Source: Rhizobium sp. NLR16a (GTDB lineage Bacteria > Pseudomonadota > Alphaproteobacteria > Rhizobiales > Rhizobiaceae). Taken from it: a DNA stretch of 64,000 nucleotides. The notes beneath the pieces were generated by a model that saw only the letters and a program-made list of their open reading frames with translations, had not been told where the DNA came from and ran no database searches. The translations under genes and the position numbers were made by a program. Positions 13,827 through 56,281 of this stretch are shown here, piece after piece (position 1 is the stretch's first letter; every line of letters begins with the position of its first letter). The DNA is taken from assembly GCF_017948245.1 (NCBI RefSeq), contig NZ_CP072865.1, positions 3,621,501-3,685,500 of the forward strand, read 5' to 3'.

Positions 13827-13884
13827 CCATCCATGGTATGGTTCAGCAGGGATGGAGCAGACGCGACAAGAGGAGGAGAGGTCC

Positions 13885-15438
13885 ATGATCGGACTGGAAG
13901 AGGTCAGTCATCGCCACGATGACAGCGCCACGCTGAAAGAAGCCAATCGCATTCCCGCCGGATCGCCTATCCTCGAACTCAAGGGCCTGCAGAAGAATTA
14001 CGGTCATGTGCAGGCGCTGAAACCGGCGACGCTGACCTTCCTGGCCGGAGAGATCCACGCCATCGTCGGCGAAAACGGCGCCGGCAAATCCACCCTGATC
14101 AAATTGCTCACCGGCGTCATCACCCGCACGGCCGGCGAGGTGCTGTGGTGCGGCCATCCCGTCGGGCTGTCGACGCCGAACGAGGCGATCGCCCGCGGCA
14201 TCAATGCCGTCCACCAGGAAGTGGTGCTCTGCCCGCACCTGACGGTCGCCGCCAACCTCTTCCTCGGCGACGAGGTCAACCGCTATGGCCTGATGCGCAA
14301 GAAGCAGATGGAAAAGATGGCGCAGGCGGTACTCGACGATCTTGGCTTCGGCCTGCCGGCCGGCGCGCTTCTAAGTTCGCTGACGATCGGCCAGCAGCAG
14401 CTGGTGGCAACGGCGCGCGCGGCGATGCGCGGCACGCAATTCCTGATCTTCGACGAACCCACCGCCTATCTGACACGCCAGGAATCGGCGCAGCTGTTCA
14501 AGCTGATCCGCCGCCTGCAGGGCGAAGGCGTGACCATCGTCTATATCAGCCACCGCATGGAGGAGGTCTTCGAACTGGCCGACCGGGTCTCGGTGCTGCG
14601 CGACGGCACGCATGTCGGCACGCGGCTGATCGGCGAGACCAATGATGCCGAGCTGATCGCTTTGATGATCAACCGCTCGATCGAGCAGATCTACCACAAG
14701 GAAGAGATCGCCTTCGGCGAGACGATCGTCGAGGTCAAAGGGCTTTCGGGTCCGGGCTTCGAGGACGTGTCGCTCAGCGTCAAATCAGGACAGATCGTCG
14801 GCCTCTATGGCCTGATCGGCGCCGGACGCAGCGAATTCGCGCTGGGCCTTTATGGGCGCCAGCCGAAAAGCGCCGGCGAAATCCACTGGATGGGCAAGCG
14901 CGTCGACATCCGGAACGAACGCACGGCCATGGAGCTCGGCATTGCGCTGGCGCCGGAAAGCCGGCGCGACCAGGGGCTCTGCCTCAATCAGTCGATCGGC
15001 CTCAATATCAACCTGCCGGTCTTCGGGCGCCTCAGCCACGGGCCGGTCATCAACCATGCGCGGGAATCGGCGAATGCCGACAATCAGATCCGCAATCTCA
15101 GCATCAAGACGCCGAGCCGGCGCGTTCCGGCCTCCAGCATGTCGGGCGGTAACCAGCAGAAGATCGTCATCGGCAAGTGGCTGAGCCACGGCGCCAGGCT
15201 GTTCATCTTCGACGAACCAACCGTCGGCGTCGACGTCGGCACCAAGGCGGAAATCTACCGGCTGTTCGCCAAGCTTCTGAAGGAGGGGGCGGGCATCATC
15301 CTGATCTCCTCCTATCTGCCAGAGGTCTACGAACTGGCCGACCGGCTGCACGTCTTCCGCGGCGGCAGGATCGTCGCCAGCCATGATTTCCACGCGGCGA
15401 CGCATGAAGAAGTGCTCAGCGAAGCGATCGGCGTCTGA
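13885..15438 (+). CDS. Sugar ABC importer ATPase with two nucleotide-binding domains (RbsA/MglA type)
   Basis: Start ATG 13885 is preferred because a GAGGAGGAGAGG Shine-Dalgarno lies directly upstream; an in-frame ATG at 13852 would only add a charged leader. The 517 residues contain two ATPase halves. The first has Walker A GENGAGKST and Walker B FLIFDEPTAYL, with the signature region reading LTIGQQQL. The second has the degenerate Walker A GLIGAGRSE and an intact signature MSGGNQQKI with FIFDEPTVGVD. A degenerate second site is normal in this family. It works with the permease at 15514 and the binding protein at 12792 to import a monosaccharide. Confidence 0.92.
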   Translation: MIGLEEVSHRHDDSATLKEANRIPAGSPILELKGLQKNYGHVQALKPATLTFLAGEIHAIVGENGAGKSTLIKLLTGVITRTAGEVLWCGHPVGLSTPNEAIARGINAVHQEVVLCPHLTVAANLFLGDEVNRYGLMRKKQMEKMAQAVLDDLGFGLPAGALLSSLTIGQQQLVATARAAMRGTQFLIFDEPTAYLTRQESAQLFKLIRRLQGEGVTIVYISHRMEEVFELADRVSVLRDGTHVGTRLIGETNDAELIALMINRSIEQIYHKEEIAFGETIVEVKGLSGPGFEDVSLSVKSGQIVGLYGLIGAGRSEFALGLYGRQPKSAGEIHWMGKRVDIRNERTAMELGIALAPESRRDQGLCLNQSIGLNINLPVFGRLSHGPVINHARESANADNQIRNLSIKTPSRRVPASSMSGGNQQKIVIGKWLSHGARLFIFDEPTVGVDVGTKAEIYRLFAKLLKEGAGIILISSYLPEVYELADRLHVFRGGRIVASHDFHAATHEEVLSEAIGV

Positions 15439-42772: not shown

Positions 42773-42872
42773 GGTTCCTCCTCCGCATCCGCGCGCCGAA
42801 CCCGCGCGGAGGCCGTCACCCCTGTTCATCCGTTCGTTGCTTAGCCGGTGGGCGACGGCACATCGTCCGTCC

Positions 42873-43943: not shown

Positions 43944-44054
43944 GAACTCCTCCCAGAGTTTGCCGGCGCCGCCTCTGCGGGCCGGAATTTTCAAAATATG
44001 ACACTTCGCTCAGTCGCTGTCGCTCCAAAGCCGCCCGTGCCCTTGACAATGGCA

Positions 44055-44111: not shown

Positions 44112-44255
44112 GATGTGGCATGCTCGACCGAATTAGGGTGCACAGCGAGCGCAGCGCGTTTCAGACGCGAAGGACGCTGTACCGCCTTGAGCTGCTGCAT
44201 GTTTTTAAATCGCCTTCGATGAGGAGAAGGAGGCGAACGCTCGGGAGGAGCGGCC

Positions 44256-54600: not shown

Positions 54601-55878
54601 TTACTGGCTTTCGGGCAGGCCGGCGCCGACACTGTCACCGACCGAACCGACGGTGTTGTCCATCGACTGGCCGAGCCGCTTCAGCTGCGCATCGTAGTTG
54701 CGCCGGGTGCGCGGATCGAAGATTGCGATCGGCGTGCTGACGGCGACGCTGACCGCACTTCCGGCCGTCTGAGCCGCCCCCATCGCCACCGCGCCGACGG
54801 CCTCGCCGAGGCCGACATTGGAATCGGTGATCGTCTGGCCGGCAATCAGCCGGTCGCCGATCAGCTTCACCACTTCCGGGCTTTCGGCGAATTTGCCGTG
54901 GTTCAGCCGGTCGCCGCCCTTGAGCTTGGTGAGATCGAGCACGGTGATGCCGGCCGCCTCCAGCTTGCTGCGGTAAGGCTCGGCGGAAGGATCGATCTGG
55001 CCGAGCCGGTCGATATTGCCCGAGATGCGCCGCGACAGCGCCAGCGCCCGATCATCCCTGGAGACGAAGATGGTGAAATGCGGCCGGTCCTTGCCGAGGC
55101 TCATGAACTGCCGGCCGAAGACGTCGACATCGAGATCCGGCGAGGCAAGGATGACATTGTTGATCTTCGAAGCGACGTGACCGTTGCGGATCGCCATCTG
55201 CCGGAGTGCTTCGACGGTCAGCCAGGTGCCCATCGAATGGGCCATGACGGTGACGTCGCTGACGGCGGGATTGGCGGCGGTGCGGGTCAGCAGCTCTTCC
55301 AGCGCATCGCGGGAATAGTTGGTGCTTTCCTTGTCGTAATTGTAATCGAAGATGCTGGCGCGCGACGGCCAGGTGAAGACGACGGGCGCAACGTCGGCAT
55401 GCGAATCGTGGACGATCTGCGCGAAACGATAGACCGCGTCTTCATAACGGTTGTTGAAGCCGTGCACGAAGACGAGCACGCGGCGGCTCTTCGGCATATG
55501 GGTTTTCAGCCAGCTCTCGCCTGCCCGCTCGCCCTCGAGCGGATCGACGGAAACGGTGACGAAGTCACGGAGCGGATCGGCCGGCAGGCGCTTCGGCCAT
55601 TGCACCTGGCCGACCGTGCGGTTGGCTTCCGGCGGAATCGAGACATCGACGGCGTTAACGGCAAGCCCCGTGCCGCGTTCGCCGGAGAAAAGCACGGCCG
55701 GGTTGTCATCGGCAGCGCGCGTCGTCGCCACCAGGAGATCGACCTTCGACGTGCCCGGAGGCACGGTGCCGGCCGCCTGCATCACCCCGACCGGTCGGCC
55801 GCCGCAGCCGGCGAGCACCATCGTTGCGACCAGAAGCCCTGTCAGAGCCGCATGCGAGCCGCGCCATCTGCCGATCAT
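54601..55878 (-). CDS. Alpha/beta-hydrolase lipoprotein (DUF900 type)
   Basis: ATG 55878 has GGAG eight bases upstream and starts a lipoprotein signal (MIGRWRGSHAALTGLLVATM, then VLAGC with the lipid-attachment Cys). In the 425-residue protein the hydrolase core has LVFVHGFNNRYEDAVYRFAQ as the oxyanion strand, the nucleophile elbow AHSMG and later DLDVDVFGRQF. AHSMG departs from GxSxG only at the first Gly, which is normal for this family. The C-terminal 60 residues are low-complexity (AVGAVAMGAAQTAGSAVSVA). It is probably a periplasm-facing membrane-anchored esterase of unknown substrate. It is monocistronic. Confidence 0.85.
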   Translation of the reverse strand: MIGRWRGSHAALTGLLVATMVLAGCGGRPVGVMQAAGTVPPGTSKVDLLVATTRAADDNPAVLFSGERGTGLAVNAVDVSIPPEANRTVGQVQWPKRLPADPLRDFVTVSVDPLEGERAGESWLKTHMPKSRRVLVFVHGFNNRYEDAVYRFAQIVHDSHADVAPVVFTWPSRASIFDYNYDKESTNYSRDALEELLTRTAANPAVSDVTVMAHSMGTWLTVEALRQMAIRNGHVASKINNVILASPDLDVDVFGRQFMSLGKDRPHFTIFVSRDDRALALSRRISGNIDRLGQIDPSAEPYRSKLEAAGITVLDLTKLKGGDRLNHGKFAESPEVVKLIGDRLIAGQTITDSNVGLGEAVGAVAMGAAQTAGSAVSVAVSTPIAIFDPRTRRNYDAQLKRLGQSMDNTVGSVGDSVGAGLPESQ

Positions 55879-55992
55879 GACTAACTCCAACCGGTTCACG
55901 CGCCGGACAGACGGCACAGGTTCAAATAGTCCGGCGAAGGCTGTCGAGTCAAATTGTGCACGGCAAAGCAGCGCCGGCGAAATGGCATGAGG

Positions 55993-56118
55993 GGAAAAGA
56001 AAAGAGCCTGGCGCGGGAGGAGGTGCGCCAGGCTCTCGATCCTGACCGACAACTGGGAGGAGGAGTGTTGCCGGTCCGATGTAAGAGCGCTTGGGAGGAG
56101 GAGTGCGCTGCTTACGAA
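55993..56118 (-). ncRNA. Trans-acting small RNA, alpha-r14/NfeR1-like, with three anti-Shine-Dalgarno loops
   Basis: Read on the minus strand the region folds into three consecutive hairpins: 56115-56081 (stem GTAAG-C-AGCGC), 56076-56044 (GACCGGCAAC paired with GTTGTCGGTC) and 56035-56004 (an 11-bp stem, GAGCCTGGCGC). Each loop displays CCTCCTCCC, complementary to ribosome binding sites. The last hairpin ends in TTTTCTTTT and is a Rho-independent terminator. This is the layout of the rhizobial alpha-r14 sRNAs (Smr14C2/NfeR1 in Sinorhizobium, about 123 nt), which silence transporter mRNAs by masking start regions. The 5' end is estimated, and no clear promoter was identified. Confidence 0.85.
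56004..56035 (-). terminator. Rho-independent terminator of the sRNA
   Basis: An 11-bp perfect stem (56025-56035 with 56004-56014) and a 10-base loop carrying the third CCTCCTCCC is followed on the minus strand by TTTTCTTTTCCCC. Confidence 0.88.
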
Positions 56119-56281
56119 GATAGTGATACCCCATTCATTTGATCGGGAATAGCGAAATTACCGCAATGCAGCAATGCAATGAGCGCAATGCTCGCCACTT
56201 CAAGCGGCAGTGCGCGCCTCATTTTGCGGCATCTTTGACCGGGTGGTCAAAATTTGCTGAAAGATGTGGCAGTGGCGGCAG

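Follow-up and report, generated by a model that had tools for sequence, protein, structure and literature searches.

Does the minus strand of Rhizobium sp. NLR16a, between positions 55993 and 56118 of the window (the whole stretch of 64,000 nucleotides analyzed here), encode a small RNA, and if so, to which family does it belong and which mRNAs would it silence? The original prediction was a minus-strand RNA of three hairpins with anti-Shine-Dalgarno (aSD) motifs in the loops, and its coordinates and layout proved to be correct. The features are listed in Table 1.

Table 1. Features of the RNA locus, its promoter region, and candidate target sites (positions in the window)
Feature	Position	Strand	Basis
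Alpha-r14 sRNA gene, predicted transcript	55995..56117	-	RF02344 match, alignment, sequence
Hairpin 1, aSD motif in loop (complement 56093-56101)	56081..56115	-	Fold; two-sided changes at 2/10 pairs
Hairpin 2, aSD motif in loop (complement 56055-56063)	56044..56076	-	Fold; two-sided changes at 4/10 pairs, 100% of cells paired
Hairpin 3, predicted terminator stem, aSD motif in loop (complement 56015-56023)	56002..56037	-	Fold; two-sided changes at 3/13 pairs
Predicted sigma-70 core promoter, CTATTC (56152-56147), N17, GTATCA (56129-56124)	56124..56152	-	Position in syntenic alignment
Conserved box GCATTGCTGCATTGC, candidate LysR-type (LsrB) site	56163..56177	-	Syntenic conservation
TGC-N11-GCG, candidate NtrC-like site, about -114 to -98	56215..56231	-	Placed like the NtrC site of NfeR1
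Inverted repeat TTTGACC-N4-GGTCAAA, possible further operator	56234..56251	-	This or a close variant in 38/59 syntenic sequences
DUF900 alpha/beta hydrolase gene, synteny marker downstream of and separate from the RNA	54604..55878	-	PF05990, E = 1.3e-100
Candidate site CTGGGAGGAG, frcB-like leader (start 43943)	43947..43956	-	10-nt match to the hairpin 2 loop side
Candidate site GGAGGAGGA, frcC-like leader (start 42772)	42776..42784	-	9-nt match
Candidate site GAGGAGGAG before sugar ABC ATPase ORF (ATG 13885)	13870..13878	+	9-nt match

Fold and promoter region of the RNA

The proposed membership in the alpha-r14 family was borne out by a covariance search (cmscan): RF02344 (ar14) matched the minus strand at 56121-55999 with 114.9 bits (E = 1.5e-20), about twice the gathering score of 58.8, and the model was covered from end to end (positions 1-123). 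A score under the family threshold, which the original prediction had named as refuting it, was thus not obtained. The fold of 55980-56130 on the same strand has a free energy of -60.6 kcal/mol (z = -7.68), and none of 200 shuffled sequences was as stable. In all three hairpins, CCUCCUCCC lies unpaired in the loop; the loop sequences read CUCCUCCUCCCA in hairpins 1 and 2 and CCUCCUCCC in hairpin 3. Across the whole window, GGGAGGAGG (the complement of CCTCCTCCC) is found on the plus strand only, at 56015, 56055, and 56093, one per hairpin, and it is absent from the other strand. In the model structure, the stem of hairpin 3 comprises 13 pairs, with UUCUUUU after it at 56001-55995. By its sequence it looks like the Rho-independent terminator that the third hairpin had been taken for. 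A simple terminator scan listed no terminators, probably because it accepts loops of 3 to 8 nucleotides and the loop of hairpin 3 has 10. The end of the predicted transcript was placed in this U tract, and a start at about 56117 was inferred from promoter spacing.

Upstream of the RNA, CTATTC-N17-GTATCA is rightly placed for a sigma-70 promoter but matches the consensus weakly, and a consensus scan did not return it; the promoter signature published for NfeR1 is CTTAGAC-N17-CTATAT (PMC10746234). Among 59 syntenic sequences, the box GCATTGCTGCATTGC is exact in 51 and has at most one mismatch in 58. A degenerate form, whose consensus was drawn up after inspection of the promoters, occurred with at most one mismatch at 35 of 60 ar14 loci and at 0 of 327 gene upstreams, with the proviso that some of the loci are the same locus twice (e.g., L013 and L124) and that L023 is short-flanked and out of register. 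In the nfeR1 promoter, LsrB reportedly binds a box between -72 and -60 that resembles the LsrB site of abcR1 (PMC10746234). The box described here lies slightly closer to the predicted start, and control of the sRNA by LsrB is plausible. That the same box is common to AbcR promoters was considered and dropped: at the three RF00519 (AbcR-like) loci of NLR16a it had 3, 4, and 5 mismatches, no better than background, where 3 and 4 mismatches occurred at 19 and 60 of the 327 upstreams.

Further upstream, 44 of 59 syntenic sequences have TGC-N11-GC[AG] near the position of the candidate NtrC-like site; the GCA ending published for NfeR1, whose NtrC site (TGC-N11-GCA) lies between -101 and -116 (PMC10746234), is found in 3 of 59. 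At the adjacent inverted repeat (56251-56234, minus strand), the promoter scan gave the reading TTGACC-N18-CAAAAT.

Conservation, copies, and the neighboring hydrolase gene

In 52 distinct copies of the locus, 99.7% of 1716 stem cells are paired and the loop motifs are invariant; sliding the partners by 1 to 3 columns lowers pairing to 29-43%. Two-sided changes were seen at 9 of 33 stem pairs, in 129 cells compared to a shuffled mean of 42. Of five covariation measures, the one counting further pair types gave no support (20 versus 20.3 after shuffling).

In the NLR16a genome, five ar14 matches exceed the cut-off, two on contig C1 and one each on C2, C3, and C4; the four other copies carry the aSD motif wholly or partly, and five weaker matches (E up to 10) were not counted as members. 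Each of the 25 Rhizobium genomes searched, NLR16a included, has 3 to 10 ar14 matches at E <= 0.01. In other families of the order, 9 of 16 genomes have a match at this threshold and 1 of 16 reaches the cut-off.

Several of these copies have features of their own. One in NLR16a (G000:C4:359749-359871) has the same promoter box; a PF01547 binding-protein match is found on the opposite strand at a distance of about 450 nt. A chromosomal copy (L003/L006, G000:C1:2075331-2076118) is followed after about 590 nt by a weak match (27.9 bits), and the small gene preceding that match is, as judged by eye, presumably DUF1127-like. At L037 (G034:C6, about 917490-917790), eight CTCCTCCC motifs lie within about 300 nt, most of them in predicted hairpin loops; the reading frame ahead of this array is one that we again take to be DUF1127-like. 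For comparison, two to four aSD hairpin modules are mentioned in PMC3927594. L027 (G004:C3:461682) appears by eye to have an extra aSD hairpin ahead of the usual three, resembling the four-hairpin SmelA099 type.

The hydrolase gene downstream served as a marker of synteny; its start at 55878 was chosen by judgement over a longer, TTG-started reading. In its best segment, the hydrolase shares 98% identity with that of Rhizobium aethiopicum SEMIA 4074, and it is 94-97% identical to those of several R. phaseoli/leguminosarum-group species, which places the host in this group. Among the best 80 of 531 hydrolase loci, 58 have at least three CCTCCTCC motifs in the 1500 nt before the gene, in the same orientation, and this shared strand and order would suit a leader or attenuator acting in cis on the hydrolase gene. 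Such a role is highly improbable, and we reject it: the third motif lies anywhere from 102 to 621 nt from the gene, the third hairpin is terminator-like, the genome has four more copies over the cut-off elsewhere, and 22 of the 80 hydrolase loci lack the RNA (all 11 named Agrobacterium, all 3 from Sinorhizobium, and 8 others, the close Rhizobium locus L047 among them). The variable distance suggests that the RNA is probably an independent unit. A coding origin was also considered, as a TTG-started ORF of 483 amino acids reaches into the RNA; stem covariation and the variable spacing oppose it. Could the locus instead be a paralog that is hardly or never expressed under most conditions? The six S. 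meliloti copies would fit this, since northern blots reliably detected just one of them in the conditions tested (review PMC7143759). The compensatory stem changes and the promoter box kept across species, however, imply selection at the locus, and we consider a silent paralog quite unlikely.

Predicted pairing with sugar-transporter leaders

The ribosome binding sites to which the original prediction had drawn attention, before the genes at 13885, 42772, and 43943, are real, and they match the loops over 9, 9, and 10 nt. We kept that prediction's names frcB and frcC; their basis is PF13407 and PF02653 matches and a divergent ROK-type gene, and the NCBIfam equivalog scores of both fell below the cut-offs. 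In the frcB-like leader, CTGGGAGGAG is kept in 26 and GGGAGGA in 30 of 30 Rhizobium loci (the best 30 of 61 matches in 60 genomes, and hence the closer species); in the frcC-like leader, the 9-mer GGAGGAGGA is kept in 24 and GGAGGAG in 27 of the 30 closest loci. The ROK-type gene that diverges from frcB carries CGGGAGGAG in its leader at 44242-44250 (plus strand), a 9-nt match to hairpin 3. The ntrB gene of NLR16a has CGGGAGG before its start; in S. meliloti, silencing of ntrB and of two binding-protein (SBP) mRNAs by NfeR1 through the loop motifs is reported (PMC10746234). That the three genes are local does not recommend them further as targets, because an RNA acting in trans has no preference for mRNAs encoded nearby.

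A class comparison covered 60 sugar SBP leaders (the best 30 of 53 PF13407 and the best 30 of 55 PF01547 matches), 19 of 20 PF00496, 23 of 24 PF00497, and 30 of 76 LysR matches, with start codons picked by 16S pairing; L221 and L247 have no start and were left out of the SBP sets, and SBP paralogs within the sets are not fully independent. We take PF13407 and PF01547 to be sugar, PF00496 peptide, and PF00497 amino-acid binding proteins. The background comprised 331 genes that a simple gene caller had found in the window and in 20 segments of contig C1, each of 20 kb; the caller returned fewer genes than expected, and SBP genes may be included.

At a duplex threshold of -15 kcal/mol, picked after looking at the data, ar14 pairing was found in 29 of 60 sugar leaders versus 33 of 331 background leaders (Fisher 4e-11), compared to 0/19 for PF00496, 2/23 for PF00497, and 2/30 for LysR. 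Since the PF00496 and PF00497 leaders do not fit, ABC transporters in general are unsupported as targets. Exact ar14 matches of at least 8 nt are present in 23/60 sugar and 15/331 background leaders, and none of 150 shuffled loop sets separated the two groups as well as ar14. That the sugar genes merely have strong ribosomal sites is an insufficient explanation: the difference persists among leaders with 16S pairing of -9 or better (29/44 versus 32/142; p = 2.5e-7), and the ribosomal AAGGAG is not enriched (3/60 versus 19/331). UGGGAGG, in turn, is found in 11/60 versus 4/331. A G before GGAGG is by itself not significant (21/35 versus 20/49; p = 0.12), and UG before GGAGG is (11/35 versus 4/49; p = 0.009). 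Hence, the targets are partly supported as a statistical tendency of sugar SBP leaders toward predicted pairing.

A second aSD RNA complicates the assignment. The RF00519 matches in the NLR16a genome, of which two are adjacent, have CUUUUCCUCCCAGUUC and UUUCUCUCCCAGUUC stretches, and the loops of its AbcR-like RNAs carry UCCUCCCAG and UCUCCCAG, which overlap the ar14 motif. It may be that the sugar SBP leaders were shaped mainly by AbcR1/2 and that ar14 is marginal there and mainly regulates others, e.g., ntrB, a minority reading that nevertheless carries real weight. AbcR loops (three in the duplex counts) reach -15 kcal/mol in 31/60 sugar versus 45/331 background leaders, and AbcR1 controls frcC (atu0064) in Agrobacterium, according to a review (PMC4211561). 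Against this stand a slightly better separation of sugar from background by ar14 (mean difference of -4.46 kcal/mol, compared to -3.92 kcal/mol for the two AbcR loops used in the shuffled-loop comparison) and the frcB site, which ends in the G predicted from ar14 in 26/30 loci. Furthermore, 38 sugar leaders pair strongly with at least one of the two RNAs, and neither wins among them: ar14 leads by 1 kcal/mol in 14 and AbcR in 16. Judged by complementarity, sugar leaders seem to suit aSD sRNAs, no single one in particular, and GGAGGAG-type sites alone cannot separate ar14 targets from AbcR targets. The target proposal therefore stands as a tendency toward sugar SBP leaders, along with the conservation of the frcB and frcC sites in the 30 closest loci; its specificity for this RNA does not, because AbcR loops equal ar14 on sugar leaders and four other ar14 copies share the motif wholly or partly.

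Taken together, we favor, with a probability of about 0.8, a trans-acting alpha-r14 sRNA of ~120 nt that blocks purine-rich initiation regions, has sugar SBP and ntrB mRNAs as clients, and is made from an activator-aided sigma-70 promoter. We infer its transcription, its control by LsrB or NtrC, and the repression of any target. The three loops would pair with initiation regions reading UGGGAGGA or GGAGGAGG, and the ribosome would thereby be blocked; likely clients would be the mRNAs of sugar ABC-transporter binding proteins (PF13407, PF01547), frcB included, and ntrB. Transcription would probably start from the sigma-70 promoter with an activator at GCATTGCTGCATTGC, perhaps the LysR-type LsrB. 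It is also imaginable, albeit doubtful, that ar14 and AbcR converge on the same UGGGAGGA ribosome binding site of sugar (PF13407, PF01547) SBP mRNAs. In that case, a single LysR-type activator might control both families, ar14 would favor sugar over peptide- and amino-acid-type transporters, and two partly redundant aSD families would compete for one site and set sugar uptake in Rhizobium.

Relation to known systems

A literature search on ar14, sRNA, and Rhizobium etli returned nothing, and the locus was not matched to a name in the accessible part of the R. etli tiling-array paper (PMC2881028). The family, the layout, the multicopy state, the silencing of SBP and ntrB mRNAs, and relatives in R. 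etli are already published (PMC10746234, PMC7143759, and PMC3927594).

AbcR1/AbcR2 (alpha-r15, RF00519) share aSD loop motifs with the RNA described here and have ABC-transporter mRNAs as reported targets, but their structure differs. AbcR is reported to bind Hfq (PMC7143759), and NfeR1 is reported to be Hfq independent (PMC10746234).

Shared with NfeR1 (SmrC14, SmelC397) of Sinorhizobium meliloti, a member of RF02344, are three hairpins with CCUCCUCCC loops, a terminator, a length of ~123 nt (predicted here), a conserved stretch upstream of a sigma-70-type promoter (here a predicted, weakly matching one), and several copies per genome on several replicons. The two differ in the box (TGCA-N5-GCAT here, TGCA-N6-GCAT as published) and in the NtrC-like stretch, which ends in GCG here and in GCA as published. 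The suggested likeness to alpha-r14/NfeR1 thus holds for the family; identity with NfeR1 is not supported, as none of the three Sinorhizobium hydrolase loci (L096, L106, L118) has a motif within 1500 nt upstream and, by eye, the published NfeR1 promoter motifs are found at other copies in Sinorhizobium genomes (L139, L141, L143), with TGCA-N6-GCAT and TGC-N11-GCA at copies such as L139 and L143.

The SmelA075 (three aSD hairpins) and SmelA099 (four) models (Genes 2011, PMC3927594) have the same repeated aSD module, on several replicons, and relatives are reported in both R. etli genomes; the "cuckoo RNA" family, known from a title, is grouped with this type. As far as the accessible part of that source goes, the locus is one of the SmelA075/SmelA099 kind, and an essential difference was not found. 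In sum, it looks like one more member of the known alpha-r14 family, real, well conserved, and expected. In S. meliloti, this family affects nodulation and nitrogen regulation; a copy is now placed in a genome of the R. etli/phaseoli group, and its likely clients there are narrowed toward sugar transporters, which is of moderate interest for sugar uptake.
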